This document shows, piece by piece, positions 34,574 through 55,064 of a stretch of 64,000 nucleotides of DNA (position 1 is its first letter; each line of letters starts with the position of its first letter). Both the position numbers and the translations under genes were made by a program. Origin of the DNA: Halarcobacter ebronensis (GTDB lineage: Bacteria > Campylobacterota > Campylobacteria > Campylobacterales > Arcobacteraceae); NCBI RefSeq assembly GCF_013201825.1, contig NZ_CP053836.1, forward strand, positions 1,302,001-1,366,000. Reading direction: 5' to 3'. Below the pieces are notes generated by a model. That model was given only the letters and a program-made list of their open reading frames with translations. It was not told where the DNA came from and searched no databases.

Positions 34574-37414
34574 ATGGGTAAAAATTTACTCAATGACTTA
34601 TCTTTGAAAATGGGTAGAAGAAATTTCTTAAAACTTGCATCAATTGGTGCAGGAGTTGGGGCTACTTCGCTATTTGCTTCGAATGACAGTGTAAGAGAAG
34701 CTACTGATGAAGAGGTTAAAAATCCTTTTCCTGGTTCAAAGAGAGTTAAAACAATATGTAGTATTTGTTCTGCTGGTTGTGGAATTATTGCAGAAGTACA
34801 AAATGGTGTTTGGATTAGACAAGACGTTGCACAAGACCACCCTATTAGTGAGGGTAGTCACTGTTGTAAAGGTATTGATCAAATCGATTTAGTTAAAAGT
34901 AAACAAAGGGTAAAACATCCACTTAAAAAAGTAAATGGTAAGTGGCAAAGAATCTCTTGGGAAACAGCAATTAGCGAAATATCTGAAAAGATGTTAAAAC
35001 TAAGAGAAGAGAATGGTCCTGATTCAGCAATGTTTCTTGGATCTGCAAAATTTAACTTACAACAGGCTTTTTATTTTAGAAAGTTTGCTGCTTTATGGGG
35101 TACTAATAATATAGACCACGTAGCTAGAATCTGACATAGTGCAACAGTTGCCGGTGTGGCAAATACATGGGGTTATGGCGCTATGACAAATCACTTTGGT
35201 GATGTTGTTGGACACTCAAAAGCTATATTTATGATTGGTGCAAACTCAGCAGTTGCAAATCCAATTGGATTTAAACATTTCTTACAAGCAAAAGATAGAA
35301 ATGGAGCAAAACTGATTGTTGTTGATCCAGTTTATACAAAATCAGCAGCTAAAGCTGACCACTACTTAAGAATTAGAACAGGTACAGACGTAGCATTTAT
35401 TTATGGACTATTGCATGTTATCTTTAAAAATGGCTGGGAAGATAAAGAGTTTATAGATAGTAGAGTATATGGGATGGATGAAGTAAGAGAAGAAGCTAAA
35501 AAATGGACTCCTGAAGAGACTTCTGATGTAACAGGTATTCCTGCTTCACAAATTGTACAAATTGCAACACTGTTAGCAAAAACAAAACCTGCAACAGTAG
35601 TTTGGGCACTTGGTATTACTCAACACAGTACTGGTACATCAAATACAAGAATTCTTCCAATATTACAATTAGTATTAGGAAATATGGGTAAAAAAGGTGG
35701 AGGATGTAATATCATTAGAGGACATGATAATGTTCAAGGTTCTACTGATATGTGTTGTCTTGCCGATAGTTTATCTGGATATTATGGATTAGGTGATGCA
35801 TCATGGAAATACTATGCAAAAGCATGGGGAATTGACTATGAATGGCTTAAAGGTAGATTTGCAGCACCAAAATGGATGAATGAAAAAGGTTTCTCACTTG
35901 CTAAATGGTGGCAAGGTGTATTACAAGAAGAGAAAACATACTCTTCAAGTCCAATTAGAGCTTTATGGGTTCAAGGTACAGGTATTACATCAATGGCACA
36001 AACTGCAAAAGTTAAAGAAGCCCTTGATAAATTGGATCTATTAGTTGTTGCTGAACCATTTGTAAATGAAGCAGCAGTAGTTACTGAAAAAACAGATAAT
36101 ATCTATATTCTACCTGTGTGTACACAGTTTGAAACAGAAGGTAGTGTAACTGCAACAAATAGAACATCTCAATGGAGAAGTAAAGTTGTTGATCCACTTT
36201 ACGAATCAAAAACTGACCACGATTTAATGTTTGAATTTGCTAAAAAATTTGGTTTTTATGATGAATATACAAAAGCTATGAAAATGGATGTTGTAGATGG
36301 TGAGTATAAAGTTGTAAAAGATAATTTTGTTTGGCCAGATGATGCAGCAAATGAAGTTGCAAGAACAGTTAAAACAATTGGTCTTGGTGGATGGACTGCA
36401 CAAAGATTAAGAGAACATCAAGAAAATTGGCACCTATTTGATCCTATATCATTAGAGGGTAGAGGAAAAATGAAAGGTCAATATTATGGTTTACCTTGGC
36501 CTTGTTGGGATACAAAACACCCTGGAAGTCCAATTTTATATGATGTTGAAACACCTATGAGTAAAGGTGGTATGGGATTTAGAAATAGATTTGGTCTTGA
36601 ACATGATGGAGTTTCTCAATTACCAGATGAAAGAGTTAGTGTAAAAGGTTCAAAAGTAAAAGGTGGATATCCAGAGATTACTAAAGAGAATATTGAAAAA
36701 GTTCTTGGAATCAAACTAACTGATGAAGAGAGAAACAAAATGGGTGCAAACTGGAAAGTTGACCTTAGTGGAATTATTCAAGAAAAATGTAATGAAGCAG
36801 AAGTATGTGTATATGGAAATGCAAAAGCTAGAGCTAAAGTGTGGATTTTCCCTGATCCTATTCCATTACATAGAGAACCAATTCACTCGCCAAGAAATGA
36901 TTTAGTTAATAAATATCCAACCTATAATGACCAAACAAATAATTTTAGGGTTGATGTTAGATTTAAATCAGAGCAAACAGCACAAGATTGGTCAAAAGAT
37001 TTCCCAACAATGCTGGTTACAATGAGACTTGTAAACTTAAGTGGTGCTGGTATGTTAGAGAGAACAAGTAAATATCTTTCTCATATTACACCAGAGATGT
37101 TTGCAAACATAAATCCTGAGCTAGCTTCAGATTATGGATTAAGAGATGGGGATATGATGTGGTTACACTCTCCTCAAGGGACAAAAATTAAAGTAAAAGC
37201 AAGATACAGTAATAGAGTTACTCCTGATAGAATTGCCTTACCATACAACTTTGCAGGAATTATGCAAGGGGTTGATATGAGTGCAAATTATCCAGAAGGA
37301 ACAAAACCATATGCTATTGGTGAGAGCTCAAATACAATTACAAACTATGGATTTGACATTATCACTCAAATACCTGAGTTTAATGCTGGTTTATGCAAAA
37401 TAGAAAAAGCGTAA
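34574..37414 (+). CDS. fdhA: Formate dehydrogenase alpha subunit, selenoprotein, cluster 1
   Basis: 946 residues when the TGA at 35132-35134 is read as selenocysteine 187 (VARI-U-HSATVAGVANTWG). A Tat signal (GRRNFLK at 14-20) precedes the [4Fe-4S] site (C62, C65, C69, C97 or C98) and the bis-molybdopterin domains. The Sec residue binds molybdenum or tungsten at the formate site. A hairpin TTGCC-GGTGT-GGCAA (35148-35162) starts 13 bases after the TGA and fits a bacterial SECIS. The enzyme oxidises formate in the periplasm and passes electrons to FdhB. It is clearly more divergent from the cluster 2 and 3 copies than they are from each other. Confidence 0.95.
35148..35162 (+). promoter_or_regulatory. 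SECIS hairpin of fdhA, cluster 1
   Basis: TTGCC and GGCAA pair around GGTGT, a loop with the GGU that SelB recognises in the E. coli element. It begins 13 bases after the in-frame TGA. Confidence 0.75.
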
Positions 37415-37424
37415 GGAGTAGAAG

Positions 37425-38009
37425 ATGAGTGAAATGGCAAGAATGAAATTTTATTGTGATGAAGATAGATGTATTGAGTGTTTTGCTTGTAGTGTTGGTT
37501 GTGCTGAAGCTCATGAATTACCAACAGGAATTGCAAGAAGAAAAGTAATAACAATTGATGAAGGTAAAGAGGGATTAGAGTACTCTTTATCTATTGCTTG
37601 TATGCATTGTACTGACGCACCTTGTGAAAAAGTTTGTCCAGTAGATTGTTTTTATATAAGAGAAGATGGAATTGTTCTTCATGACAAAGAGAAGTGTATT
37701 GGTTGTGCGTATTGTCTTTATGCTTGTCCTTTTGGCGCTCCACAGTTCCCAAGAGATGGGGCTTTTGGAACAAAAGGTGTAATGGATAAATGTACAATGT
37801 GTGCTGGTGGTCCACTTGAGACTAACTCACATGAGGAGAGAGAACTGTATGGACAAAATAGAATTGCTGAAGGAAAAGTTCCTTTATGTGCTTCTGTTTG
37901 TGCAACAAATGCTCTTTTAGTGGGTGATTCTGAAAAAGTATCAGAGATATTTAGAACTAGAGTTTTATCAAGAGGTCATGACCATAATTCTAGAACTATG
38001 AAAATGTAA
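37425..38009 (+). CDS. fdhB: Formate dehydrogenase iron-sulfur subunit, cluster 1
   Basis: 194 residues. Four [4Fe-4S] motifs are visible: CIECFACSVGC, CMHCTDAPCEKVCPVDC, CIGCAYCLYACPFGAP and CTMCAGG with later CASVC. It carries electrons from FdhA to the membrane cytochrome. It has no signal peptide and probably rides through Tat with FdhA. The AAGGAG site is good, and the gene starts ten bases after fdhA. Confidence 0.92.
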   Translation: MSEMARMKFYCDEDRCIECFACSVGCAEAHELPTGIARRKVITIDEGKEGLEYSLSIACMHCTDAPCEKVCPVDCFYIREDGIVLHDKEKCIGCAYCLYACPFGAPQFPRDGAFGTKGVMDKCTMCAGGPLETNSHEERELYGQNRIAEGKVPLCASVCATNALLVGDSEKVSEIFRTRVLSRGHDHNSRTMKM

Positions 38010-38023
38010 AAAAAGAGTAAGAT

Positions 38024-38917
38024 ATGAAACTTAAATATCTACTAATTATATTTTTAGCACTAACTTCACTAGCTTTTGCTAGTGAAAGTGCTATTTGGGG
38101 AAAGGATTTAGTAGCTAATATTTTAGCCTACGATAAAGAGGGCAGTTTGCAGTTAGGAAAGTGGTTTACTCTACTTCAAGATAAATACTTTACTATTGCC
38201 TTTTTAGTTGTAATGTTAGCTATTCCTTTTGTTTTTATGGTTCACTATTTAATTATTGGACCAATGATCTTTTCACATGATAGAAAAAAGATAAAAGTAT
38301 TTAATATTTTTCATAGAACTATTCACACAATAGCTGGAGTATCTTTTATTGTTCTTGTACCAACAGGATTTGTAATGATATTTGGAAGTTATCTTGGTGG
38401 AGGTTTTTTTGTTAAGACTTGTAAAGAATTACACGCGATTGCTACTCCTTTCTTTTGTGTGGCCGTGATTCCTATGCTAGTAATGTGGTTTAAAGAGATG
38501 CTTCCAACAAGTGATGATATCAAATGGATGATGATTCTTGGAGGTTATCTAAATAAAAGAAAAGACCCAATTCCTGCAGGAAAATTTAATGCAGGGCAAA
38601 AAATGTGGTTTTGGTTATGTACATTTGGTGGAATAGTTATGATTTTAACTGGTGCAGCAATGTATTTCCAAGATTTTGAATTAGAAATTATTAAATCATT
38701 TGGATTATCACAAATTGATTTTTTAAGATTAAGTGTAATTGTTCACAATATACTTGGTATGGCAGTTTCAGCACTGTTCTTTACCCATGTTTATATGTCA
38801 GTTTTTGCAATTAAAGGTGCAATCCATAGTATGGTAACTGGATATAAAGAGGAAGAAGAGGTTGAAATTTTACATAGTACATACTATAAAAAGTTAAAAA
38901 AAGAACAAAAAGTATAA
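38024..38917 (+). CDS. fdhC: Formate dehydrogenase cytochrome b subunit, cluster 1
   Basis: 297 residues: a cleavable signal (about 1-18, ending AFA), then four membrane helices. Haem-ligand histidines are visible in FHRTIHTIAG, KELHAIATPFF and VHNILGMAVSALFFTHVYM. It takes electrons from FdhB to the menaquinone pool. It differs from the cluster 2/3 FdhC, which has a longer periplasmic N-terminal part. Last gene of cluster 1. Confidence 0.9.
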   Translation: MKLKYLLIIFLALTSLAFASESAIWGKDLVANILAYDKEGSLQLGKWFTLLQDKYFTIAFLVVMLAIPFVFMVHYLIIGPMIFSHDRKKIKVFNIFHRTIHTIAGVSFIVLVPTGFVMIFGSYLGGGFFVKTCKELHAIATPFFCVAVIPMLVMWFKEMLPTSDDIKWMMILGGYLNKRKDPIPAGKFNAGQKMWFWLCTFGGIVMILTGAAMYFQDFELEIIKSFGLSQIDFLRLSVIVHNILGMAVSALFFTHVYMSVFAIKGAIHSMVTGYKEEEEVEILHSTYYKKLKKEQKV

Positions 38918-38944: not shown

Positions 38945-39610
38945 TTAGATATTATCCAAAGCATTTTCATCAAATTTATAAGTTTTGTGAGCTGTTTTTA
39001 CAAGAATATTTTTTTCTGAAAGCTCTTTAAAAAGTTTGATTAACGTAGGTTTTGAAATAGATATTTCACTCATAATTTCACTATATGAAGTATTAATCAA
39101 ATTATCATTATTTAAATTGTTTATTAGATATTTTATAACATCAACTTGTTTGCTATCTGTTACAGCACCAATCATTTTAATAATATTGATATTTTTTTGT
39201 ATCTCTTTTTGTTGAGTAAATGGCAACAATACATCATGTAATGAGTTTAATAACTCTTTTATATTTATTGGTTTTACAATATAGTTTTCAACTTTTAATT
39301 TAATGGCATCTAAAAGATATTTTGTATCTGTGTGAGCCGTTGTAAGAATTGTAGGAATCTGAATATCTTTCTCTTTTTTTAAGTAGTTTAGAAAATCTAT
39401 TCCATTATCATCTTGCAATAAAATATCTGAGATAATAACATCAATTTTTTTATTTGAGAGAATATTAAGTGCCTCTTTTGTTGTTTCAACTGCAAAAATA
39501 TTATTTACAAAATCTTCTAAAACATCTTTTGTATGCGTTAAAAGTTGAACATCATCTTCTATGTAAAGTACATTGAAATTTTTTAATATATTTAAATCTT
39601 TTACTATCAT
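38945..39610 (-). CDS. Response regulator with winged-helix output, between FDH clusters
   Basis: 221 residues. The receiver (about 8-125) has the acidic pair in YIEDD, a phospho-acceptor aspartate in IISDILLQD and a lysine in YIVKPINI. The C-terminal 70 residues look like a small winged helix (TSYSEIMSEISISKPTLIKLFKELSEKNIL). Third gene of a substrate-binding-protein, kinase, regulator cassette; 50 bases separate it from the kinase gene. Its place between two FDH clusters makes it a candidate regulator of them (inference). Confidence 0.82.
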   Translation of the reverse strand: MIVKDLNILKNFNVLYIEDDVQLLTHTKDVLEDFVNNIFAVETTKEALNILSNKKIDVIISDILLQDDNGIDFLNYLKKEKDIQIPTILTTAHTDTKYLLDAIKLKVENYIVKPINIKELLNSLHDVLLPFTQQKEIQKNINIIKMIGAVTDSKQVDVIKYLINNLNNDNLINTSYSEIMSEISISKPTLIKLFKELSEKNILVKTAHKTYKFDENALDNI

Positions 39611-39659
39611 AACACAACCTTAATTTTATAATTGTAACAAAAATTATTTTAAAATAATA

Positions 39660-41207
39660 TCATTGAAAAGGTATTTCAAGAATAAAGAGAGTTGATTTAC
39701 AGTTATCACAATTGGGTCGTGGATTTTTGATATTTTTACATTTAATAGAACCATTCATATGTTTTTCAATAATCTGTTTAGACATATATAGTCCAATACC
39801 TGTTCCTGCACTTTTATATTTTGTTGTATAGTATGGCTCAAATATTTTAGGAAGAATTTTATCACTGATGCCTCCCCCATTATCCATAAAGTGTAAAATA
39901 ACTTTTTTTCTAGCTTGTATTACAACTATTCTTATCTCCTTAACGAGACAACAATCTTTATCCATTAAGGCATCTTTTGAGTTATTAATCAAATTTAATA
40001 ATACATGTGAAAGACCATTATAAAAACCATCTATAACTATATCCTTTTTCATTTCAATTGTATGATGAATATTGTATTTTTCTAAGACATATTTAGAGAG
40101 CTCAAAAGAGTGTTCTATGCAATTTTTTAGACTGAATTTACTTTTTATATTATCAGGAGTAAAGAAGTTTTTAAAATCATCTAAAGTTGTTGACATATTA
40201 TCTGCTAAAAGTAGGGCATCTTTTACTTTTGTATCTACAAATTCAGGGGTTAGTTTGCCAAACTCCATTTTTGTCTGAAAGCTTTGTATAATCATAGATA
40301 TTGAACCAAGTGGTTGTCTCCATTGATGGGCTATATTATTTAGCATCTCTCCCATTGAGGCAAGTTTTGCCTGTTGAAACATAATTAAATCTTTTTTTCT
40401 ACTATTTTTAACTTCAATTTCAATTCTTTTTTCCAAATTATCATTAAGCTCCATTAATTCTTTAGTTTTTCTTTCAACTTTTAATTCCAAGAGTTTATGA
40501 AGTTTTTTGAAGTTGTTGATGATAATTATAGATAATAGAATAGAAAAGATAAAGACAAATACAATTGATAAAATAGAAAAAAGAAAAATATAATTAAAGA
40601 GTCTATTTGTATCTCTTTTTTCATCAATAGTTACTTTTAAATCATAGTTAATTAAACTTGTAATATAGATTTTTATACTATTAGTTTCATATTTTACTTC
40701 ATTATACGAATTTAGATCAAAGTAGTTTATATAGTTATTAATATGTTCCATTTTTTTATCAATATTTGTCATCAAACTCTCTAAAAGCACTTCATTTTTG
40801 TATTCATAGTTTTTTTCTATAAATAATTTTTTTATAATTTGAAGGAAAAAATTATTTTCAAACTCACTATTTCTGTTTTGTTTGTACTGATTCCAGTAAT
40901 TATTTGAAAGATTTTTAGCTAACTCTAAAACCTCTTTTCCATTTTCAAAACTGATATTGTTATTCTTTATATCATAAATTGTATCTAAAACATTTATCTC
41001 ATAAACATCTTTTAAACTCTCAAGAAGAATAAGAGGTTTTGTTCTTTTTTCAAAGAGTCTTTCATAGTCATTTTTTATAGCATAAGTTGAGATTTGAGAT
41101 AAGATAATAATTGATAACATACCTCCTGTTATAATAAATATTAGAATATAGGTTTTATATTTAAAAGTAATATTATCAATAAAGTCAATTATATTAGTTG
41201 ATTTCAT
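39660..41207 (-). CDS. Sensor histidine kinase, partner of the substrate-binding protein
   Basis: About 515 residues from the ATG at 41207. Two membrane helices flank a 150-residue periplasmic helical domain (about 45-200). The kinase core has the phospho-acceptor histidine in NNIAHQWRQPLGS (near residue 294), N-box NLINNSKDAL, G1 DNGGGISD and G2 GTGIGLYMSKQII. It overlaps the upstream binding-protein gene by 14 bases, so the two are coupled. It probably reads the ligand state of that protein. Confidence 0.85.
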   Translation of the reverse strand: MKSTNIIDFIDNITFKYKTYILIFIITGGMLSIIILSQISTYAIKNDYERLFEKRTKPLILLESLKDVYEINVLDTIYDIKNNNISFENGKEVLELAKNLSNNYWNQYKQNRNSEFENNFFLQIIKKLFIEKNYEYKNEVLLESLMTNIDKKMEHINNYINYFDLNSYNEVKYETNSIKIYITSLINYDLKVTIDEKRDTNRLFNYIFLFSILSIVFVFIFSILLSIIIINNFKKLHKLLELKVERKTKELMELNDNLEKRIEIEVKNSRKKDLIMFQQAKLASMGEMLNNIAHQWRQPLGSISMIIQSFQTKMEFGKLTPEFVDTKVKDALLLADNMSTTLDDFKNFFTPDNIKSKFSLKNCIEHSFELSKYVLEKYNIHHTIEMKKDIVIDGFYNGLSHVLLNLINNSKDALMDKDCCLVKEIRIVVIQARKKVILHFMDNGGGISDKILPKIFEPYYTTKYKSAGTGIGLYMSKQIIEKHMNGSIKCKNIKNPRPNCDNCKSTLFILEIPFQ

Positions 41208-42339
41208 ATTTAATCTCTTTAAAATTTGAATTTTTATACTCGAAAAGATATGTATCATTTAAAAGTTGATTATTTTTAAAATTGATATTTAGTCCATCCA
41301 TCTCTTCGGGAGTTAATGATTTTAGTGCCTTTATAAAAGTCTCATTTGTAATATGATTTTGAGTTCTTTTTATTGCTTTTACAACAGCTTTTGCAGCAAG
41401 AAAAGATTCAAAAGAGATAAAACTATAACAAGAATCAGGATAATAAGTTTTTAAAAGTTTTCTATATTCTTTTGCTATTTTAATATCTGAGTTATAGTCA
41501 GGAACTACCTGAGAAAATATTATTCTTTCGCCTTTATGGTTTAGTTCTTTTAACATTGCATTTGCATCACCAAAAGATAGTGTTGCAAAAAGTGTCTCTT
41601 TTAGATTAGGAATTTCTCTAGCCTTTTCAATAAAAAGTGCACTTGCTTTATATGCACCAATCATTATAATAGCTCCAATCTCTTTATCTTTCATCTCATG
41701 TATTGCATGGGTTATTGATAGAGTATTCCTTTTATAACTTCCTTCACTAACTAAAGTTAATTTATTCTTTTTCAAAGTCTGTACAAGAGCAGTATACGCC
41801 TCTTCTCCATAATCATCATTTTGATAAAATACTGCAAATTTTTTTATATTTCTAACTTTATTTAGATAAGAGATTATTTTTTCTATCTCTTTTGTATAAC
41901 TACTTCTTAGATTTATAATATTTGAAATATTTGTGTTCCTTAAAAAACTAGCTCCCGTAAAAGGAGCAAAAAATGGTATTCTTGTATCAGCTAATATGGG
42001 TAAAATATTTTTTACTGTAGGAGTACCAACAAAACCAAAAAGTGAAAATACTTTATCTTTATAGATTAAATTATTACTATTTTTGAAAGTTAAATTTGGT
42101 TCATATTTATCATCGTAACTTTTTAATACAAATTTTTTTTCATTTATTAGATTGGATTCATTTGCATATTTAAAGTAACTGTTTGCTCCTAAAAGTACTC
42201 CTCTTCCCCAAGCCTTCATAATCCCCTCTTTAGGTAAAGATGTACCTAAAACAATCTCTTTTGAGCTATATACATTGCTCCTAAAAAAGCTTAATGCAAA
42301 TATACATAAAAAAATAAAAATAATAAATCTATATAACAT
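41194..42339 (-). CDS. Periplasmic ABC-type substrate-binding protein used for signalling
   Basis: 381 residues with a signal peptide (about 1-24). It has the type I periplasmic-binding fold of branched-chain amino acid and amide receptors (GTSLPKEGIMKAWGRGVLLG, then LFGFVGTPTVKNILPILAD and YQNDDYGEEAYTALVQ). No permease or ATPase gene is near; instead a histidine kinase gene overlaps its end. It is therefore probably a sensor subunit. Ligand unknown. Confidence 0.85.
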   Translation of the reverse strand: MLYRFIIFIFLCIFALSFFRSNVYSSKEIVLGTSLPKEGIMKAWGRGVLLGANSYFKYANESNLINEKKFVLKSYDDKYEPNLTFKNSNNLIYKDKVFSLFGFVGTPTVKNILPILADTRIPFFAPFTGASFLRNTNISNIINLRSSYTKEIEKIISYLNKVRNIKKFAVFYQNDDYGEEAYTALVQTLKKNKLTLVSEGSYKRNTLSITHAIHEMKDKEIGAIIMIGAYKASALFIEKAREIPNLKETLFATLSFGDANAMLKELNHKGERIIFSQVVPDYNSDIKIAKEYRKLLKTYYPDSCYSFISFESFLAAKAVVKAIKRTQNHITNETFIKALKSLTPEEMDGLNINFKNNQLLNDTYLFEYKNSNFKEIKYEIN

Positions 42340-42521: not shown

Positions 42522-42537
42522 GTAAAATATATTTTAC
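42522..42537. promoter_or_regulatory. FDH-cluster palindrome, copy 2
   Basis: GTAAAATATATTTTAC is a perfect 16-base palindrome ending 15 bases before the first gene of cluster 2, almost the same spacing as copy 1. Confidence 0.65.
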
Positions 42538-44226: not shown

Positions 44227-44827
44227 TAAAGATATTGATAAAGCTAGATTGTTTATTTATAATGTTCTTTCACTTTTTTTTGTTGAAGAACATGTAAAGA
44301 ATCATTTGAATGAGTTGATTGAAAATTTAGATATTTTAGCTTTAAACTCTTTTGATGAAGATTTTTCAAAAATTATTGTTGAAATAGAGGAATTACTAAA
44401 AAATTACGAGAAGAATGAACTCTATGTTCAGTATCAAGAGCTATTTTTAGTTCCTTTTGGAAACTCTGTATCTCTTAGTGCTTCTTGGCATCATGAAGAG
44501 AGAGAAGCTGGTTTGATGTTAATAAAAGTAAGAGATATTTTAGCTCAAACAAAAATAAGAAGAGATGAGAGTAAGTTTACTGCACAAGAGGATAACTTTG
44601 GATTTATTTTTACCCTTTGTTCATATTTGATTGAACAACAAATAAATGGTGAGTTAAAAACAAATTTACAAAAAGAGCTTTTTAAAGAGGTGATAAATCC
44701 TTTTATTGACAAGTTATCTTTTCAACTTGTTGCAAGTGGTTCAGAAGTTTATACAAGAGTTGGAACTCTTTTAAGTATATTCTTTAATTTTGAGAGAGTA
44801 TATTTAGAGGTTCAAAGGGTTAAATAA
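44219..44827 (+). CDS. TorD/DmsD-family chaperone, cluster 2
   Basis: 202 residues, helical, with the TorD pattern YVQYQELFLVPFGNSVSLSA, HEEREAG and KIRRDESKFTAQEDNFGFIF. It lacks the lysine-rich tail of the cluster 1 copy. Likely client: FdhA of cluster 2, and by similarity that of cluster 3, which has no chaperone gene of its own. Confidence 0.85.
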   Translation: MHNKDIDKARLFIYNVLSLFFVEEHVKNHLNELIENLDILALNSFDEDFSKIIVEIEELLKNYEKNELYVQYQELFLVPFGNSVSLSASWHHEEREAGLMLIKVRDILAQTKIRRDESKFTAQEDNFGFIFTLCSYLIEQQINGELKTNLQKELFKEVINPFIDKLSFQLVASGSEVYTRVGTLLSIFFNFERVYLEVQRVK

Positions 44828-45152: not shown

Positions 45153-47951
45153 ATGAATATGTTAAAAAGCTTTGGAAGAAGAAGTTTTCTTAAGATGGCT
45201 TCACTTGCAACAGCTGTAACAGCTACATCTGCCTTTGCTAGCAACAATGTTTTACGGGATGCGACAGAAGAGGAAGTTAAAAATCCTTTTCCAGGGTCAA
45301 AACTTATTAAAACAATTTGTTCGCATTGTTCAGTTGGATGTGGAGTTATTGCTGAAGTGCAAAATGGTGTATGGGTAAGACAAGAGGTGGCACAAGACCA
45401 TCCAATAAGTCATGGTGGACACTGCTGTAAAGGTGCAGATATGATTGATAAAGTTAGATCTGCAAATAGATTACAGTATCCAATAGAGAAAGTTGACGGA
45501 AAATGGAATAGAGTTACTTGGGATGATGCAATGACTAAAGTAACAGCAAAACTTGTTGAATTAAGAGAAAAGTTTGGTCCAGATTCAGTTCAATTTTTAG
45601 GTTCAGCAAAAGTAAGTAATGAGCAAGCTTTCTATATTAGAAAATTTGCAGCAATGTTTGGAACTAATAATATAGATCACCAAGCAAGAATCTGACATAG
45701 CCCAACAGTTGCCGGTGTGGCAAATACATGGGGATATGGTGCTATGACAAACCATATAGGTGATATGCAAAATTCAAAGGCAATCATCATTTTCGGAGCG
45801 AACCCAGCTTCTAACCACCCAGTTTCAATGCAACATATATTAAAAGCAAAAGAACAAAATGGTGCGAAAATAATTGTAGTAGATCCAAGATATACAAAAA
45901 CAGCAGCGAAGTCAGATATCTATTGTAGAATCAGACCAGGTACTGATATAGCATTTATGTATGGAATGATAAGATTAATTAAAGAGAATAATTGGTTTGA
46001 TAAATCATTTATAAATGATAGAGTATATGGAATGGATGAAATCTTTAAAGAGTGTGAAGAGTATACACCAGAAGTAGTTGAGGATATTACAGGGTGTCCA
46101 AAAGATACCTTTATTCAAGCAACAACTCTATTTGCAAACTCTGATCCAGGTTCATTAATTTGGAATCAAGGTTGGACACAACATACAATAGGTTCATCAA
46201 ATACAAGATTAGGTTCAATTTTACAACTCTCTCTTGGTAACTTAGGTAAACCAGGTGGTGGATGTAATATTTTAAGGGGACATGATAATGTTCAAGGTTC
46301 TACTGACTTAGGATGTCTTGCAGATACCCTTCCAGGATATTATGGATTAGCAGAGGGTTCATGGAAATATTTTGCAAAGCAGTGGAATGTTGATTATGAG
46401 TGGTTAAAAGGTAGATTCAAATCTAAAGAGATGATGGAATCAAAAGGGTTTAGTTTAGGTCTTTGGTTACATGGTGTTTTAGATGAAGAGAATATAGCAA
46501 ACAATGCAGGAACAAAACTTAAAGCTTTAGTTTGTATAGGTAATGGTATCTCAACAATTACCCAAACACATAAAGTAAAAGAGGCATTGGATAAGCTAGA
46601 TATGGTTGTATTTATAGACCCATATGTTAATGATGCAGCGGTTATTACTACAAGGGATAACAACTTATTCCTATTGCCAGCAGCTTCACAAGTTGAAACT
46701 GAAGGTACAGTTGTAAATACTGCAAGAAGTGCACAATGGAGATTTAAAGTAGTTGATCCTTTATATGAAGCAAGAACTGACCATGAGATTTTATTTGATT
46801 TTGCAAAGAGAATGGGATTTTATAATGAGTATATTGCAGGAATGGGTAAAGGTGATAAATTTATTTGGCCAGATGATGCAACAAATGAGATAGCAAGAAG
46901 TTTAAAAACTATTGGTATGCAAGGAAGAACTGCTGAAAGAATTAAAAAGCATACAACAAATTGGCACCTTTTTGAATCAACTTCACTAAAAGGAAGAGGT
47001 GTAACAGAACATGAGTATTATGGATTACCATGGCCTTGTTGGACAGAAACACACCCAGGAAGTCCAGTTTTATATAATATAAATCTGCCAGTAGCACAAG
47101 GTGGTATGGGATTTAGAAATAGATTTGGAACTGAAAGAGATGGAGTATCTTTATTATCAGCAGCAGGATCAGCACCAGTTGGAAGTAGAATAAAAGGTGG
47201 ATATGCAGAGATAACTTCTAAAAATATAGAAGAGCTTGCAGGAATTAAATTAACAGAAGAAGAGAAAAAAGCAGTAGAGAGTAAAAACTGGAAAACAGAT
47301 GATAGTGGAATATTAGTTAAATATGCACTAAAAGCTGGACTTGCTCCTTATGGAAATGCAAGAGCTAGAACTATTGTTTGGGATTTCATTGATAATATTC
47401 CAAAACATAGAGAGCCTTTACACTCATTTAGACCAGATTTAGTTAAAAAGTATCCAGCGGTTAAAGATAATCCTAAACACTTTAGAACTCATGTTAGATA
47501 TGAGAGTGAGCAAAATGCACAAGAGTGGACAAAAGATTATCCTGTAAATATTGTTTCTGGAAGAGTTGTTTACCATATGGGAACAGGTACAGAGACAAGA
47601 GCATCAAAATATTTAGCTGAGTTAAGCCCTGAAATGTATGGTGAATTACATCCAAATTTTGCAGGTAAACTTGGATTAAATGATGGTGATATGATGTGGG
47701 TTTATGGAACTGGTGGTGGAAAAATTAAAATTAAATGTAAATTCAGTTTTAGAGTTGCAGAAGATTATGTATTTTTACCTCAAAACTTCTCTGGAATATG
47801 GAGTGGTGAACATTTAGGTAAAAGATATCCAAGTTCAACTGCACCTTATGCATTTGGTGAGAGTTCTAACCAAGTTACAAGTTACGGTTTCGACCAACAA
47901 ACATCTTGTCCTGAGACAAAATGTTCGTTAGTGCGAATAGAGAAAGCATAG
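45153..47951 (+). CDS. fdhA: Formate dehydrogenase alpha subunit, selenoprotein, cluster 2
   Basis: 932 residues with the TGA at 45693-45695 read as selenocysteine 181 (QARI-U-HSPTVAGVANTWG). Tat signal (GRRSFLK, 8-14), [4Fe-4S] cysteines C56, C59, C63 and a later CC pair, then the molybdopterin domains. The SECIS hairpin TTGCC-GGTGT-GGCAA is at 45709-45723, identical to that of cluster 1. The gene is largely identical to fdhA of cluster 3 but differs in blocks around the metal site, near 335-375, 495-535, 765-830 and the C-terminus. Confidence 0.95.
45709..45723 (+). promoter_or_regulatory. SECIS hairpin of fdhA, cluster 2
   Basis: TTGCC-GGTGT-GGCAA, 13 bases after the in-frame TGA, the same stem and loop as in cluster 1. 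Confidence 0.75.
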
Positions 47952-47966: not shown

Positions 47967-48560
47967 ATGAGTAAAGAGCCACAATTTGCAAGAATGAAGT
48001 TTTATTGCGATGAGAACCTGTGTATCGACTGTAACGGATGTGTAGTAGCGTGTAAAGAAGCACATGAAGTGCCAGTTGGAGTAAATAGAAGAAAAGTAGT
48101 AGCAATAAATGAAGGGATAGTAGGTAAAGAGATATCAATATCAATGGCATGTATGCATTGCGCAGATGCACCATGCCAACAAGTGTGCCCAGTAGATTGC
48201 TTCTATATAAGAACAGATGGGATAGTACTGCATGATAAAGATAAATGTATAGGATGTGGATATTGTCTGTTTGCCTGCCCATTTGGAGCACCACAATTTC
48301 CAAAAGATGGAGCATTTGGAACAAAAGGGAAAATGGATAAATGTACAATGTGTGCAGGTGGACCAGAAGAGACGAACTCACATGAAGAGTTTGAGAAATA
48401 TGGACAAAATAGAATATCAGAAGGGAAAGTTCCAATGTGCGCATCAATGTGTTCAACAAAAGCTTTATTAGTAGGTGATGCTGATGAAGTAGCCTTGATA
48501 AAAACATATAGAGCGACACATAAAGGTATAGGTATTGCAACAGAATCGTATGGATGGTAA
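47967..48560 (+). CDS. fdhB: Formate dehydrogenase iron-sulfur subunit, cluster 2
   Basis: 197 residues with four [4Fe-4S] motifs (CIDCNGCVVACKEAHE, CMHCADAPCQQVCPVDC, CIGCGYCLFACPFGAP, CTMCAGG with CASMC). The protein is identical to fdhB of cluster 3, and the DNA is nearly so (one GCG/GCA change seen near 48049). It differs clearly from cluster 1 FdhB. AAGGGG lies upstream. Confidence 0.93.
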   Translation: MSKEPQFARMKFYCDENLCIDCNGCVVACKEAHEVPVGVNRRKVVAINEGIVGKEISISMACMHCADAPCQQVCPVDCFYIRTDGIVLHDKDKCIGCGYCLFACPFGAPQFPKDGAFGTKGKMDKCTMCAGGPEETNSHEEFEKYGQNRISEGKVPMCASMCSTKALLVGDADEVALIKTYRATHKGIGIATESYGW

Positions 48561-48565
48561 AAGAG

Positions 48566-49522
48566 ATGAAAAATAGCTCATTTTATCAAAGAAATAAAGC
48601 ATATATACTAACGGCATTAGGACTGTCAATAGTAGGATTTGTGTTTTTGAAGTTCTTAATGATAGTAGATTGGGAATACTTTATAAAATATAAACTTCAT
48701 ATACTGTTTACAGGGAATTTGGATGGAGTGTTAACTCCACCAACTTCAACCTATGAAGCGATGGTAAATAAAGCCTTTGGACCAGCATATGAAGCCTTTG
48801 CCCCAGAGATAATAAGAGCAAGTAATGAGAGACAACTCTATATCTGGTGGGTGTTCGTGGCAGAGATGTTTATATTCTGTATGATGTACCTGTTTCAAGG
48901 AAGAAAAGAAGCAGTAATAACAAGACCAGAAGATACAGTAAAAGTGTTTGGCTTTTTCCATAGAGTAATAATATGGCTGAATGTAGTAATCATGATAACT
49001 CTAATAATAACAGGGTTTAATATCACATGGGGATTGAGAAGTGAAGGTGGATTGATACCGTTTTTATTAAGAGGTACCCATGAGATAACAGGATTGCTGT
49101 GGTTTCCTGTGTGGATGATAATGAGTATAATAGCATTTAAAGACTCAAAAATCATTTTTAATAATAGCTTGACAAAAAAAGTGCTTTTACCAGGGAAATA
49201 TAAGCCAATGAAGAGGATAATATACTACTTCTTTGTAATTATGGGAGCAGGATTGTTAATAAGTGGATTTGTAATATGGTATTTGCACCCAAGTTCGCTT
49301 ACAAATGCACATTTTATACAATTTAAAAGATTGATGTTATATGTACATTTCGGATCAAGTGTATTGATAATGTTTTTTATAATGGACTTTGTATATTCAA
49401 CATTAGTTGCAGTAAAAGGTAACTTAAAAGGGTTGATAACAGGAAGATATCCAAAAGAGCATTTGGAACAACTAGCACCGGATGTATTAGAAGATATAGA
49501 GAGAAGAGGGGAAAAAGGATGA
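48566..49522 (+). CDS. fdhC: Formate dehydrogenase cytochrome b subunit, cluster 2
   Basis: 318 residues from ATG 48566 (an in-frame ATG at 48554 overlaps fdhB and is possible). One N-terminal helix, a periplasmic stretch of about 70 residues, then four helices with haem-ligand histidines in FFHRVIIWLN, GTHEITGLLWF and YVHFGSSVLIM. It passes electrons to quinone. The protein is identical to the cluster 3 copy. It overlaps fdhD by four bases. Confidence 0.9.
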   Translation: MKNSSFYQRNKAYILTALGLSIVGFVFLKFLMIVDWEYFIKYKLHILFTGNLDGVLTPPTSTYEAMVNKAFGPAYEAFAPEIIRASNERQLYIWWVFVAEMFIFCMMYLFQGRKEAVITRPEDTVKVFGFFHRVIIWLNVVIMITLIITGFNITWGLRSEGGLIPFLLRGTHEITGLLWFPVWMIMSIIAFKDSKIIFNNSLTKKVLLPGKYKPMKRIIYYFFVIMGAGLLISGFVIWYLHPSSLTNAHFIQFKRLMLYVHFGSSVLIMFFIMDFVYSTLVAVKGNLKGLITGRYPKEHLEQLAPDVLEDIERRGEKG

Positions 49523-50349
49523 GTAAACCTAAAAGAAGTGAAAACTTCTTCCCCCTTTTGGAAGATATTAGTGGTCACTATAAAGAGGTGATTATGGAAA
49601 AAGTATCTGAAGAGAGGATGGAAACACTAGAAGATTATGTAATTAAAGAAGAGAAGATTGAATTCTATTTAAATAAAGATAAATTTCTTTCGGTTATGTC
49701 AATAGCTAAACATCAAAAAGCACATATAATTGGATTTTTGTTAAGTGAAGCAGTGATAAAAAGTGTTGACGATGTAGAAGAGATAAATTTAAGTGAAGAT
49801 GGTTTAAAAGTAGAAGTAATTGCAGAAGTGAGTCAAGAAGGATATGAAAATCTTTTTAAAGAAAAAACCTTGACTTCTGGATGTTGCGTTGGTGTAACAG
49901 GAAATGCAGACAAAGCATTTGAATGTGCTTTTGTAAGTACTGATTATAAAGTTGAGGCAAAAAAAATATTAAACTATATGGTTGAGTTTAATACTCCTAC
50001 AGAACTTTTTTATAAAACTGGGTGTGTTCACACAGCAGAGTTAGTTTTAGAAGATGGAAGTATCTATAAGAGTGAAGATATTGGAAGACATAATGCAATT
50101 GATAAAGTAGTAGGTCAAGCTGCTATGGATAAAAAAGATATTAAAAGATCTGTATTATATTCAAGTGGTAGATTATCACAAGAGATGGTAGTTAAATGTG
50201 TAATGCATAAAATACCAATAGTAGTATCAAAAGCGGCAGTAACCTTTCAAGGAATAAAATCAGCAAATGAGCATGGTATAACAATAATAGGTTTTGCTAG
50301 AAATAGTAAAATGAATGTTTATACACATTCTGGTAGGGTTTATGTCTAA
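49519..50349 (+). CDS. fdhD: Formate dehydrogenase sulfurtransferase FdhD
   Basis: 276 residues. FdhD carries sulfur from a cysteine desulfurase to the molybdenum cofactor of FdhA. Family motifs: FYKTGCVHTAEL, SEDIGRHNAIDKVVG, YSSGRLSQEMVVKC and VVSKAAVTFQG. The cysteine site reads TSGCCVGVTGN, adjacent cysteines rather than the CxxC of E. coli FdhD. It is coupled to fdhC (ATGA overlap). The 5' 41 bases are duplicated after cluster 3 as a fossil. Confidence 0.92.
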   Translation: MSKPKRSENFFPLLEDISGHYKEVIMEKVSEERMETLEDYVIKEEKIEFYLNKDKFLSVMSIAKHQKAHIIGFLLSEAVIKSVDDVEEINLSEDGLKVEVIAEVSQEGYENLFKEKTLTSGCCVGVTGNADKAFECAFVSTDYKVEAKKILNYMVEFNTPTELFYKTGCVHTAELVLEDGSIYKSEDIGRHNAIDKVVGQAAMDKKDIKRSVLYSSGRLSQEMVVKCVMHKIPIVVSKAAVTFQGIKSANEHGITIIGFARNSKMNVYTHSGRVYV

Positions 50350-50680
50350 AACCTCAGAGAGTGCCAGGCGGAATTTAACTCTAGATAATATTCAAAAAGA
50401 GTATATTTTAACCAACTTAGAAGAAGAGAAAAGAATATCCTGTTATAGATTAGCCATAATTGCAAAGAAGATCAATAAAAGTTTTAGTGAAATAGTACAG
50501 GTTATAAACCACATGGAGATTGAAGTTATTAATTGTCAAGATATAGTTTTTAAAAATATAGATTTTAATAATAGACATAATAACAGATTAAAACCAAACT
50601 ACAAGGAAGAACATTTAAGTAGTGATTGTGCACTCCTTTGGGACGAGTTTGTTAAGATAAAAGAAGAGGATAAGTTTTGA
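50342..50680 (+). CDS. Unknown small protein between fdhD and the NifS-like gene
   Basis: 112 residues from the ATG at 50342, inside the fdhD stop region. I do not recognise the family. The N-terminal half (LDNIQKEYILTNLEEEKRISCYRLAIIAKKI) is helical and could form a helix-turn-helix; the C-terminal part is polar, with one cysteine in SSDCALLWDEF. It overlaps both neighbours by a few bases, so it is co-translated with fdhD and the NifS-like gene and probably works with them. Confidence 0.7.
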   Translation: MSKTSESARRNLTLDNIQKEYILTNLEEEKRISCYRLAIIAKKINKSFSEIVQVINHMEIEVINCQDIVFKNIDFNNRHNNRLKPNYKEEHLSSDCALLWDEFVKIKEEDKF

Positions 50681-51654
50681 TAAAATTGAATAGTTTACAA
50701 TATCAAGTATTAGAAGATAGTTTTAAATTGAATGATTTTTCTTTAGATGCTTTAGTTGGTAATGATAATGTTGATGCTCTTTATACAGAGTATAAAAAAA
50801 TGTTTGGCTTTAAAAAGTTAAAAACTTTTGCTTTTTCAAAAGAGGGCTTTTTAGGATTATTTCTTGAACTAAAAGGAAAAATTGCAATTAGTTTAGGAGA
50901 GAGTTTAGCTTTGATTGAAGCGGGTAAACTCTATGAGAGTTTAGGTTTTGAAGTTTTATGGCTTGATTTAAAAAAAGATGGAAAAGTAAATTTATCTACA
51001 TTAGAGAAGAATAATATAGATTTTCTTTTTTTATCTTCTTATGTTATGGATACTTTTGTAAAAACTGATTTAGAAGAAGCAAAAGGTATAACAAGTGCAA
51101 AAATTATCTCAAATGCAAGTGCAAACTTTGATAGTAAAAGTGACATAATCTATTTTGACCTTTATAAACTTGCAGGTTTTTCTCTCTCATCAGTATTGCT
51201 TTTCAATAATGAAGAGTTTGAATTATTACCCTTAGGCTCTTTAGATACTATTGCAGTTAAATTATGTATAGATTCTTTAAAAAGTCAAGAGTTTAACCAC
51301 CAAATGAAAGGGATTTTCCTTGAAAAATTAAAAGAGGTTTTTAAAGAAGATATTTACTTTTTTGTTAAACCAGAAGATACTTTTGATTTCTCTCTTCATT
51401 TTGCTTTAAAAGGTATAAAAGCACGAGAGTTTATAAGAACTTTAGCTCTAAATAAAATCTTTCTTACAAATGGTGAAGGTTGTTCTTTAGGGCTTTCAAA
51501 ACCTTCAAGAATTATACAAGCAATGGGCTATGATGAGACTACAAGTAGAAATGCCATAAATCTCTCTTTTACAGAGGAAATAGAGTTATCAGAAATAGAC
51601 AAGTTAGTAAATCTTATGTATCTTAAATATAAACAAATAAGAATGCTATCTTAG
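50677..51654 (+). CDS. NifS-like (class V aminotransferase fold) protein, degenerate PLP site
   Basis: 325 residues, shorter than the usual 380-400. The C-terminal half matches cysteine desulfurases: GEGCSLGLSKPSRIIQAMGYDETTSRNAIN aligns in two parts with the catalytic-cysteine loop and the following LEPSxVLxAMG region. YKLAGFSL stands where HKxxGPKG has the PLP lysine. The N-terminal DNAATT motif, the PLP-stacking histidine (SLGESLALIE here) and the aspartate of HVDAxQ (ISNASANF here) appear to be missing. Next to fdhD, it may feed or relay sulfur or selenium for FdhA, perhaps not by classical PLP chemistry. Confidence 0.6.
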   Translation: MIKLNSLQYQVLEDSFKLNDFSLDALVGNDNVDALYTEYKKMFGFKKLKTFAFSKEGFLGLFLELKGKIAISLGESLALIEAGKLYESLGFEVLWLDLKKDGKVNLSTLEKNNIDFLFLSSYVMDTFVKTDLEEAKGITSAKIISNASANFDSKSDIIYFDLYKLAGFSLSSVLLFNNEEFELLPLGSLDTIAVKLCIDSLKSQEFNHQMKGIFLEKLKEVFKEDIYFFVKPEDTFDFSLHFALKGIKAREFIRTLALNKIFLTNGEGCSLGLSKPSRIIQAMGYDETTSRNAINLSFTEEIELSEIDKLVNLMYLKYKQIRMLS

Positions 51655-51803: not shown

Positions 51804-51819
51804 GTAAAAAATATTTTAC
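51804..51819. promoter_or_regulatory. FDH-cluster palindrome, copy 3
   Basis: GTAAAAAATATTTTAC, 195 bases before the first gene of cluster 3. Same form as the copies before clusters 1 and 2, but outside the duplicated segment, so it was not brought along by that duplication. Confidence 0.6.
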
Positions 51820-51946: not shown

Positions 51947-51982
51947 AACCCTTTAAGAGTTTAAAGGAACTTTTAAAGGGTT
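51947..51982 (+). promoter_or_regulatory. Leader hairpin of FDH cluster 3
   Basis: AACCCTTTAA and TTAAAGGGTT pair as in cluster 2. The upstream competing segment AAAGGGTTTTT is absent because the duplication begins just after it, so only one fold remains. Confidence 0.6.
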
Positions 51983-52013: not shown

Positions 52014-52238
52014 ATGGCTAATGAGTTAACTCAAAGAAGAGCCTTTATTAAAAGAGCAGGGATAGCAGCTACAGTGTTAGCTGGGTCAGTAGTGGCGACT
52101 GCAGCGACTTCTGAGAAGAAAGAGAGAGGTACTGGAAGCAACGTAGGGAATGGTGTTGTAACAGGAACTTCAACAAAAAAAGAGATACTTTATAAAAAAA
52201 GTGCCCATTGGGATACCTTTTATAAAGCTGCTAAATAG
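52014..52238 (+). CDS. Small Tat-signal protein of the formate dehydrogenase region, cluster 3
   Basis: 74 residues, identical in protein to the cluster 2 copy; only silent base changes are seen (for example GTT to GTA near 52089). Twin-arginine signal QRRAFIKRAG. First gene of cluster 3, which has no FeS-protein or TorD gene of its own. Confidence 0.88.
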   Translation: MANELTQRRAFIKRAGIAATVLAGSVVATAATSEKKERGTGSNVGNGVVTGTSTKKEILYKKSAHWDTFYKAAK

Positions 52239-52265
52239 TTTATATAGAGGAAGGAGAAGTTTTAA

Positions 52266-55064
52266 ATGAATATGTTAAAAAGCTTTGGAAGAAGAAATTT
52301 TCTTAAGATGGCTTCACTTGCAACAGCTGTAACAGCTACATCTGCCTTTGCTAGCAACAATGTTTTACGGGATGCGACAGAAGAGGAAGTTAAAAATCCT
52401 TTTCCAGGGTCGAAACTTGTTAAAACTGTATGTTCTTACTGTTCTGTAGGCTGCGGAATAGTAGCAGAAGTGCAAAATGGTGTATGGGTAAGACAAGAGG
52501 TGGCACAAGACCATCCAATAAGTCATGGTGGACACTGCTGTAAAGGTGCAGATATGATTGATAAAGTTAGATCTGCAAATAGATTACAGTATCCAATAGA
52601 GAAAGTTGACGGAAAATGGAATAGAGTTACTTGGGATGATGCAATGACTAAAGTAACAGCAAAACTTGTTGAATTAAGAGAAAAGTTTGGTCCAGATTCA
52701 GTTCAATTTATTGGATCTTCTAAAGTAAGTAATGAGCAAGCTTTCTATATTAGAAAATTTGCAGCAATGTTTGGAACTAATAATATAGATCAACAAGCAA
52801 GAATTTGTCATAGCCCAACTGTTGCCGGTGTAGCAAATACATGGGGATATGGTGCTATGACAAACCATATAGGTGATATGCAAAATTCAAAGGCAATCAT
52901 CATTTTCGGAGCGAACCCAGCTTCTAACCACCCAGTTTCAATGCAACATATATTAAAAGCAAAAGAACAAAATGGTGCGAAAATAATTGTAGTAGATCCA
53001 AGATATACAAAAACAGCAGCGAAGTCAGATATCTATTGTAGAATCAGACCAGGTACTGATATAGCATTTATGTATGGGATGATAAGACTAATTAAAGAGA
53101 ATAATTGGTTTGATAAATCATTTATAAATGATAGAGTATATGGGATGGATGAGATTTTTAAAGAGTGTGAAGAGTATACACCAGAAGTAGTTGAGGATAT
53201 TACAGGGTGTCCAAAAGATACCTTTATTCAAGCAACAACTCTATTTGCAAACTCTGATCCAGGTTCATTAATTTGGAATCAAGGATTAACTCAGCACACA
53301 ATAGGTTCATCAAATACAAGATTAGCTTCAATTGTTCAACTTGTATTAGGAAATATGGGTAAACCAGGTGGTGGATGTAATATTTTAAGGGGACATGATA
53401 ATGTTCAAGGGGCAACTGACTTAGGATGTCTTGCAGATACTCTTCCAGGATATTATGGATTAGCAGAGGGTTCATGGAAATATTTTGCAAAGCAGTGGAA
53501 TGTTGATTATGAGTGGTTAAAAGGTAGATTCAAATCTAAAGAGATGATGGAATCAAAAGGGTTTAGTTTAAGTCTTTGGTTACATGGTGTTTTAGATGAA
53601 GAGAATATAGCAAACAATGCAGGAACAAAACTTAAAGCACTTGTTGTAATTGGTAATGGTATCTCAACAATTACCCAAACACATAAAGTAAAAGAGGCAT
53701 TGGATAAGCTAGATATGGTTGTATTTATAGACCCATATGTTAATGATGCAGCGGTTATTACTACAAGAAAAGATAATCTATTTTTACTTCCTGTTGCAAC
53801 TCAAATGGAGACAAGTGGAAGTATTGTAAATACCTCAAGAACAATTCAATGGAGATATCAGGTTGTAGATCCATTATATGAAGCAAAACCTGACCATGAG
53901 ATTTTATTTGATTTTGCAAAGAGAATGGGATTTTATAATGAGTATATTGCAGGAATGGGTAAAGGTGATAAATTTATTTGGCCAGATGATGCAACAAATG
54001 AGATAGCAAGAAGTTTAAAAACTATTGGTATGCAAGGAAGAACTGCTGAGAGAATTAAAAAGCATACAACAAATTGGCACCTATTTGATTCTGTATCTTT
54101 AAAAGGTAAAGGTGTAACAGAACATGAGTATTATGGATTACCATGGCCTTGTTGGACAGAGACACACCCAGGAAGTCCAGTTTTATATAATATAAATCTG
54201 CCAGTAGCACAAGGTGGTATGGGATTTAGAAATAGATTTGGAACTGAAAGAGATGGAGTATCTTTATTATCAGCAGCAGGATCAGCACCAGTTGGAAGTA
54301 GAATAAAAGGTGGATATGCAGAGATAACTTCTAAAAATATAGAAGAGCTTGCAGGAATTAAATTAACAGAAGAAGAGAAAAAAGCAGTAGAGAGTAAAAA
54401 CTGGAAAACAGATGATAGTGGAATATTAGTTAAATATGCACTAAAAGCTGGACTTGCTCCTTATGGAAATGCAAGAGCTAGAACTATTGTTTGGAACTTT
54501 ACAGACCAAATCCCTAAACATAGAGAGCCTTTACACTCTCCAAGACCAGATTTAGTTAAAAAGTATCCAGCGGTTAAAGATAAAAAGAATTTCTTTAGAA
54601 CAGAAGTTAGATATGAGAGCGAACAAAATATACAAGAGTGGGTAAAAAATTATCCAACAAGTATTGTATCAGGGAGAATTGTAATGCACTTTGGTTCTGG
54701 TACAGAGACAAGAGCATCAAAATATTTAGCTGAGTTAAGCCCTGAAATGTATGGTGAGTTACATCCAAACTTTGCAGGTAAACTTGGATTAAATGATGGT
54801 GACATGATGTGGGTTTATGGAACAGCAGAAGGTAAAATAAAAGTTAGATGTAAATATAGTCATAGAGTTGCTGAAAATTCTGTATTTTTACCTCAAAACT
54901 TCTCTGGAATATGGAGTGGTGAAAAGTTAGATTATAGATATCCAGAAAAAACAGCTCCTTATGCTTACGGTGAATCTTCAAACCAAATTACAAGTTATGG
55001 TTTTGATCAAGAGACTGCTTGCCCTGAGACAAAATGTTCACTTGTTAGAATTGAAAAAGCATAA
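52266..55064 (+). CDS. fdhA: Formate dehydrogenase alpha subunit, cysteine form, cluster 3
   Basis: 932 residues. TGT at 52806-52808 gives cysteine 181 where the cluster 1 and 2 genes have TGA (selenocysteine). Tat signal GRRNFLK, [4Fe-4S] cysteines C56, C59, C63 (CSYCSVGC) and intact molybdopterin domains. Long blocks are identical to the cluster 2 gene; others are diverged, with changes around the metal-binding region and the C-terminus. The hairpin after codon 181 has lost one base pair. It should give a selenium-independent enzyme, slower per molecule by what is known of Cys variants. Confidence 0.95.
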   Translation: MNMLKSFGRRNFLKMASLATAVTATSAFASNNVLRDATEEEVKNPFPGSKLVKTVCSYCSVGCGIVAEVQNGVWVRQEVAQDHPISHGGHCCKGADMIDKVRSANRLQYPIEKVDGKWNRVTWDDAMTKVTAKLVELREKFGPDSVQFIGSSKVSNEQAFYIRKFAAMFGTNNIDQQARICHSPTVAGVANTWGYGAMTNHIGDMQNSKAIIIFGANPASNHPVSMQHILKAKEQNGAKIIVVDPRYTKTAAKSDIYCRIRPGTDIAFMYGMIRLIKENNWFDKSFINDRVYGMDEIFKECEEYTPEVVEDITGCPKDTFIQATTLFANSDPGSLIWNQGLTQHTIGSSNTRLASIVQLVLGNMGKPGGGCNILRGHDNVQGATDLGCLADTLPGYYGLAEGSWKYFAKQWNVDYEWLKGRFKSKEMMESKGFSLSLWLHGVLDEENIANNAGTKLKALVVIGNGISTITQTHKVKEALDKLDMVVFIDPYVNDAAVITTRKDNLFLLPVATQMETSGSIVNTSRTIQWRYQVVDPLYEAKPDHEILFDFAKRMGFYNEYIAGMGKGDKFIWPDDATNEIARSLKTIGMQGRTAERIKKHTTNWHLFDSVSLKGKGVTEHEYYGLPWPCWTETHPGSPVLYNINLPVAQGGMGFRNRFGTERDGVSLLSAAGSAPVGSRIKGGYAEITSKNIEELAGIKLTEEEKKAVESKNWKTDDSGILVKYALKAGLAPYGNARARTIVWNFTDQIPKHREPLHSPRPDLVKKYPAVKDKKNFFRTEVRYESEQNIQEWVKNYPTSIVSGRIVMHFGSGTETRASKYLAELSPEMYGELHPNFAGKLGLNDGDMMWVYGTAEGKIKVRCKYSHRVAENSVFLPQNFSGIWSGEKLDYRYPEKTAPYAYGESSNQITSYGFDQETACPETKCSLVRIEKA

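Follow-up and report, generated by a model that had tools for sequence, protein, structure and literature searches.

The available parts of four published accounts describe the closest known systems. Arcobacter butzleri RM4018 is already on record with one selenocysteine (Sec) and one cysteine (Cys) formate dehydrogenase (FDH) (PMC2147049). In Methanococcus maripaludis, Cys isoforms replaced the Sec enzymes at low selenium under the control of HrsM (PMC11097638). Most documented Sec-to-Cys changes in bacteria fell in FdhA, with seven replacements counted and SECIS remnants reported (PMC1794560). In mammalian GPX6, convergent changes followed the loss of Sec, and some of them were common to several lineages (PMC10958145).

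The DNA analysed here (the window, 64,000 nt, G000:C1:1302001-1366000) came from a genome of one contig of 3.17 Mb (G000) and encoded three fdhA genes (Table 1). As in A. butzleri RM4018, Sec and Cys forms occurred together in one Arcobacteraceae genome; unlike in that strain, there were two Sec forms and one Cys form, and the available part of its account mentions neither gene conversion, SECIS decay, a shared palindrome nor SelB loss (PMC2147049). The M. maripaludis system differed in that it belonged to an archaeon, worked as a transcriptional switch and, in the part of the account available, included an FdhA without a Cys isoform (PMC11097638). The Sec-to-Cys direction and the SECIS remnants in Arcobacteraceae resembled the FdhA cases in the available part of PMC1794560. 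As in GPX6, further residues changed alongside Sec to Cys; unlike the GPX6 described in the available part of that account, both forms stayed in one Arcobacteraceae genome, with conversion between them (PMC10958145).

Table 1. Features of the fdh and sel region (window positions; tatX is our own label)
Feature	Position	Strand	Remark
selB	22133..23965	-	over NCBIfam cut-off
selA	23958..25259	-	start codon uncertain; over NCBIfam cut-off
tRNA-Sec (selC)	25367..25458	+	Rfam and ARAGORN
selD	25469..26506	-	in-frame TGA; over NCBIfam cut-off
Candidate operator, cluster 1	31871..31886	.	palindrome upstream
4Fe-4S protein and TorD-like (PF02613) chaperone, cluster 1	31901..34263	+	domain match
fdhA1, Sec	34574..37414	+	U187 = TGA at 35132; 946 aa
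fdhB1-fdhC1 (b561-type FdhC)	37425..38917	+	domain matches
Response regulator, histidine kinase, periplasmic binding protein	38945..42339	-	candidate fdh-regulon sensor
Candidate operator, cluster 2	42522..42537	.	palindrome upstream
4Fe-4S protein and chaperone, cluster 2	42553..44827	+	named by likeness to cluster 1 genes
Small Tat-signal ORF (tatX), cluster 2	44909..45133	+	
fdhA2, Sec	45153..47951	+	U181 = TGA at 45693; 932 aa
UGA codon and SECIS region, fdhA2	45693..45740	+	apical stem 45709-45723; comparative
fdhB2-fdhC2	47967..49522	+	99.9% identical to cluster 3 copies; domain matches
fdhD, sulfurtransferase	49519..50349	+	over cut-off
121-aa ORF upstream of cluster 3	50315..50680	+	zero matches in family searches
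Cysteine-desulfurase-like protein	50677..51654	+	below cut-offs
Candidate operator, cluster 3	51804..51819	.	palindrome upstream
Small Tat-signal ORF, cluster 3	52014..52238	+	
fdhA3, Cys	52266..55064	+	C181 = TGT at 52806; 932 aa; mosaic near-copy of fdhA2
Decayed SECIS, fdhA3	52806..52853	+	closing C-G pair now C.A
fdhB3-fdhC3	55162..56717	+	99.9% identical to cluster 2 copies
YedF-like selenium-metabolism protein	56832..57179	+	match to C-terminal part of model only

The preliminary description had reported two fdhA genes with TGA and a third with TGT at the same codon, all with Tat signals, cluster cysteines and neighbours retained. The codons were borne out by three full-length Tat-signal FdhA frames, each with a twin-arginine start and N-terminal cluster cysteines (motifs read by eye), and the TGT of fdhA3 aligned with the single in-frame TGAs of fdhA1 and fdhA2. 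The neighbours were retained only in part, because cluster 3 comprised the small Tat-signal gene, fdhB and fdhC and lacked the 4Fe-4S gene and the TorD-like chaperone gene found upstream in clusters 1 and 2. Added here is an observation absent from the preliminary description: cluster 3 nearly duplicates cluster 2. A search of the whole genome with FdhA3 (E ≤ 1e-100) returned fdhA1, fdhA2, fdhA3 and nothing else. The small Tat-signal ORF of cluster 2 had zero matches in NCBIfam and Pfam.

Molybdopterin, 4Fe-4S and dinucleotide-binding domains (PF00384, PF04879 and PF01568) scored above cut-off in FdhA3, and the ferredoxin subunit, the b561 subunit and FdhD were all present. FdhA1, FdhA2 and FdhA3 scored below the NCBIfam equivalog cut-offs for FDH alpha subunits: TIGR01591 was the top match of all three (495-514 of 666 bits), and TIGR01553 gave 343-394 of 814 bits. 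The name FDH was therefore based on the domains, the neighbours and a full-length match to the solved FdhA 9vap_A (E 2.4e-287). Clusters 2 and 3 are the Sec/Cys pair of one predicted periplasmic, membrane-anchored formate dehydrogenase (FdhABC / FDH-N type). A Cys FdhF-like protein lacking a Tat signal was encoded elsewhere in the genome (G000:C1:2715352-2717397; TIGR01591 489-500 bits, below cut-off), so the genome may have a selenium-free formate oxidoreductase besides cluster 3.

Among 104 family genomes, with at most eight candidates per genome scored, FdhA of this kind was found in 73 and the Cys form in 13. Both forms were present in nine genomes (G000, G007, G088, G021, G032, G049, G027, G081 and G082), whereas very few or no FdhA Cys homologues in Sec-containing organisms are given in the available part of PMC1794560. 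The Cys form occurred alone in G087, G048, G103 and G001. SelB was found in 72 of the 104 genomes (of 21 genomes chosen for scoring, 14 passed the family cut-off), including all nine pair genomes and one of the four Cys-only genomes (G103, 86% complete). FdhA without SelB was seen in G001, G048 and G087 (99-100% complete, Cys only) and in G077 (61% complete, Sec gene). The family shows the stages together: Sec only, the pair, Cys only and SelB lost.

Seven Sec/Cys changes were required on the phylogenetic tree, which comprised 103 Sec and 18 Cys FdhA rows (121 in all); a previous 99-row tree required six. Rows L062 and L091 (internal non-TGA stop), rows with fewer than 880 residues covered, N-containing rows and identical or contained copies were left out of the larger tree. 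The number of Cys origins is approximate, because conversion distorts the fdhA tree, and row L168 was long-branched. The origin of the window Cys copy (A) was also represented in G007, G088 and G087 (Arcobacteraceae), and at least two species carried pairs in each of origins A, B and C. An fdhA of G011, from the genus of the window genome, was identical to that of L073. G087, G048 and G001 carried Cys genes of three different origins. In G087 and G048, the Cys gene occupied the canonical operon (4Fe-4S, chaperone, tatX, fdhABC, fdhD), a place taken by the Sec gene in their relatives G088 and G021; this arrangement would be best explained by overwriting through conversion, with an in-place change as the alternative.

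The fdh clusters had been described as lying near a complete selABCD set, and this was confirmed by NCBIfam scores for selA, selB and selD and by Rfam and ARAGORN for tRNA-Sec. For fdhA1 and fdhA2, the in-frame TGA and selA-selB-selC-selD were found together with a SECIS element, the support for which was comparative; fdhA3 had TGT and an apical stem of 4/5 pairs. Both forms and the full Sec machinery were present in one genome. Since selD also had an in-frame TGA, at least three likely selenoproteins were encoded in the window. SelD was a likely Sec protein with an AAG-U-AAK motif (window 26446-26506), and Cys was found at this site in the origin-B pair genomes examined (L166, L155, L044).

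With G-T scored as a pair, the apical SECIS stem had 5/5 pairs in 103/103 Sec rows versus 3/18 Cys rows (L044, L050 and L053). The two commonest Sec stem forms had T-A and C-G exchanged, and in fdhA3 one pair was broken. The Cys row L053 (G103) retained the exact Sec-type apical sequence, which we read as a relic of a recent Sec-to-Cys change. Single-sequence folding gave z values of -0.43, -0.51 and -0.53, with the expected apical hairpin in cluster 2 only; these energies were uninformative, so the SECIS assignment rests on the comparison of rows.

Upstream of clusters 1, 2 and 3, GTAAA-N6-TTTAC or a one-base variant of it was present. In the window, GTAAAAAATATTTTAC had 26 matches at ≤3 mismatches versus 9.7 in shuffled sequence, and 0/100 shuffles scored as high. 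At ≤1 mismatch, GGTAAAAAATATTTTAC matched four sites in the whole genome, all in the window; the site at 42000 was set aside because it lay within the binding-protein coding frame. At ≤2 mismatches, the palindrome had 21 sites in the whole genome, hardly more than the 18 of a reversed-pattern control, which counts against the case for shared control. The exact palindrome was found in 16/16 fdh loci, among them those of the SelB-less G087, G048 and G001, with 38 sites in 254 kb versus 1.3 expected from base composition. Under a looser rule applied earlier to 25 loci, one or more sites turned up in 22, the exceptions being L041, L042 and L082. Binding-protein, kinase and regulator genes accompanied 13 of the 16 loci and were not seen in L168 or in the short contigs L036 and L044.

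A role as a selenium-specific operator, considered when the palindrome was first seen at the Cys cluster, was rejected, because the palindrome also stood at Sec operons and in SelB-less genomes. We take it to be a candidate operator of a common fdh regulon, which the local response regulator may bind. At the promoter, the evidence favours control in common with the Sec clusters, and a switch, if there is any, is more likely to act at the UGA codon than at the promoter.

The preliminary description had proposed cluster 3 as a selenium-independent back-up. This proposal was supported in part: the open Cys frame, the kept Cys residues and the broken SECIS fitted such an isoenzyme, and three SelB-less relatives had the Cys form only. 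A back-up role is plausible, and cluster 3 looks like a built-in spare for selenium-free times. It is fairly probable that the back-up would be passive and depend on UGA decoding, with a Sec/Cys pair homogenised by conversion and under shared control. Clusters 2 and 3 would be transcribed under one local regulator, for which the binding-protein, kinase and response-regulator set between clusters 1 and 2 is the candidate. With selenium present, UGA would be read as Sec and the flux would pass through the Sec enzymes. In its absence, ribosomes on fdhA1, fdhA2 and the gene for the Sec-type SelD would halt at UGA, and only cluster 3 would give a complete FdhA, together with its own FdhB and FdhC. 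Since UGA decoding would decide which FdhA is finished, no selenium sensor would be needed.

A transcriptional selenium switch, in which cluster 3 would be kept off by its own repressor as long as selenium is available, is a somewhat unlikely alternative to this passive back-up; HrsM plays this part for Cys isogenes in the available part of the M. maripaludis account (PMC11097638). Cluster 3 had its own upstream region with a block, TATACYGGRTGTATAAG, whose exact match was shared, among the 104 genomes, only with the Cys cluster of G007; this block could be a cluster-3-specific control site. The 121-aa ORF upstream, without a family match, would leave room for an unrecognised regulator. However, the block was present in just 2/104 genomes, although 13 had the Cys form. 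A further argument against a switch is that the palindrome stood before operons of both types and was also present in genomes lacking SelB.

The unit tatX-fdhA-fdhB-fdhC was present twice, in clusters 2 and 3. The fdhB-fdhC DNA of the two clusters was 99.9% identical. The fdhA genes differed at 223/2796 nt and 70/932 residues and formed a mosaic of about 92% identity, with islands of difference between long identical tracts. The identity of fdhBC was 99.5-100% within a genome (four pair genomes measured) versus 74.4-86.1% between genomes for the same FDH type.

Such differences well beyond the Sec/Cys codon (70 aa) would allow the enzymes to differ in more than the ligand, as expected if the Cys form were a niche enzyme rather than a back-up, used where Sec is a liability (e.g. 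under oxygen) whatever the selenium supply; low oxygen correlated with Sec forms in several selenoprotein families in the available part of PMC1794560. We consider this explanation unlikely, as the loss of SelB in 3/4 Cys-only genomes fits substitution for Sec.

At 24 diagnostic sites, the Cys copies of G007, G088 and G087 agreed with each other and differed from all nine near Sec rows. In the window pair, the difference was kept at 18 of these sites, 4 were Cys-type in both copies, 2 were Sec-type in both and none was swapped; a smaller earlier panel had 26 sites, with 18 kept. Five of the 24 diagnostic codons lay inside identical tracts of ≥60 nt versus 14.0 on rotation (8/931 rotations as low). 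Because the kept residues were those typical of Cys or of Sec enzymes in other species, the Sec/Cys divergence is older than the identity, which argues for gene conversion and not for recent duplication. Clusters 2 and 3 thus appear to be duplicates homogenised by gene conversion after their divergence, with the Sec/Cys codon, the SECIS element and further residues staying different. A conversion-homogenised Sec/Cys pair that keeps its Sec/Cys differences looks new; in the open-licence literature, published work on gene conversion or concerted evolution combined with selenoproteins or FDH gave nothing relevant by title or abstract opening.

In five complete pair genomes covering three Cys origins (A, G000; B, G021 and G032; C, G081 and G082), most of fdhB-fdhC was covered by a run of 1160-1688 nt identical between the Sec and Cys clusters, and fdhA was a mosaic; for G032, the stretch compared ended within fdhC. 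Of the pair genomes, G007, G088 and G049 were drafts in which the contigs of the Sec and the Cys copy both broke off towards the end of fdhA or within fdhB, and a search for an fdhB match in the genomes of L039 and L044 found none. Broken contigs and absent fdhB fit identical repeats that could not be assembled, although this is suggestive only. In L049 (568-6323) and L050 (3352-9120), a Sec fdhA lay 168 and 187 bp, respectively, ahead of a Cys fdhA, forming tandem pairs of another Cys origin. An identity run in the L050 tandem was dropped as an artefact of overlapping stretches, and in the L049 pair a long identical run was not found.

Comparison of the islands over all eight pairs showed that 129/932 codons lay in islands in every pair versus 69.0 on rotation (14/5000 rotations as high). 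When codons 165-200 were left out, 34 to 874 of 4000 rotations were as high over nine settings of window and threshold. Judged from these alignments, co-location of islands over three origins seems clear with the SECIS region and depends on the settings without it. Between single pairs, the Spearman correlation of the islands was 0.18 to 0.79 within an origin and -0.03 to 0.28 between origins.

A strict Sec/Cys residue code was rejected, as no column had changed in more than 4/7 Cys origins; the count of changes at Sec-conserved sites was biased towards the Cys rows, in part by design, as these sites had been defined from Sec rows. A152 and H176 (FdhA3 numbering) were each present in 102/103 Sec rows; the two positions were S/Q in Cys origin A, S/N in origin F and S/T in the Sec row L077_4278. 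A152S with H176Q was rejected as a general Cys code, since it recurred only in origin F, as S with N, and the Sec row had S/T. Residues 152 and 176 may form a contact pair close to the active site, and positions 341 and 383 presumably lie near active-site loops.

What else an enzyme must change when sulfur replaces selenium is an open question, and here both versions are found in one cell at 92% identity. As conversion has cut their differences to short islands, a few chimeras could show what the replacement requires. The Arcobacteraceae pair may be a natural experiment in which conversion repeatedly tests swaps, the surviving islands are co-adapted to selenium or sulfur, and Cys genes overwriting the canonical Sec operon are the lineages' exit from selenium; this reading falls a little short of an even chance. 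The islands concerned would be codons 175-191 and 500-547 above all, and in the window also 152/176, 341 and 799. Selection against mixing would keep the islands, and a Cys type placed over the canonical operon would free the cell from selenium, after which SelB could be lost.

The islands could instead have a neutral cause, with conversion blocked where divergence is old; the setting-dependent co-location without the SECIS region and the weak correlation between single pairs of different origins leave room for it. A rival view joins this cause to the idea that cluster 3 is an evolutionary transient, a step to selenium independence of no present advantage, and would account for the higher island correlation within origins than between them. 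This view is distinctly improbable given the micro-islands of 12 and 40 nt, which carried diagnostic residues and were flanked by identical tracts of 243, 71 and 245 nt, and given the persistence of pairs in at least two species of each of the three origins. Recent tandem duplication with fast divergence of one copy would fit the almost identical fdhB-fdhC and is highly improbable, its plain form being contradicted by island residues that agree with the Cys or Sec enzymes of other species (18/24, none swapped), although a variant with Cys-type segments imported from another species into a recent duplicate would be expected to give the same picture.

Long hairpins were found upstream of the small Tat-signal ORF in cluster 2 (44842-44877) and cluster 3 (51947-51982), with a median gap of about 27 nt. 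Leaders were located for 111/121 FdhA rows, and a stem score of ≥12 was obtained in 98/111 leaders (Cys 9/13) versus 10/555 shuffles; their sequence varied. The leader hairpin is perhaps an attenuator or an mRNA stabiliser. Behind the YedF-like gene, a double-cubane-cluster reductase and its activase were encoded on the opposite strand (window 57207-59284). Beside selD (window 26991-28728), Tat-signal transglutaminase-like, MerT-like and HMA proteins were encoded; the latter two matched the NCBIfam MerT/CopZ selenoprotein family weakly (33 and 37 of 375 bits). The transglutaminase-like gene was present in 43/104 family genomes, 43/43 of them with SelB, and in 0/32 SelB-less genomes, shared ancestry not being corrected for. 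These genes beside selD form a candidate selenium-linked cassette.
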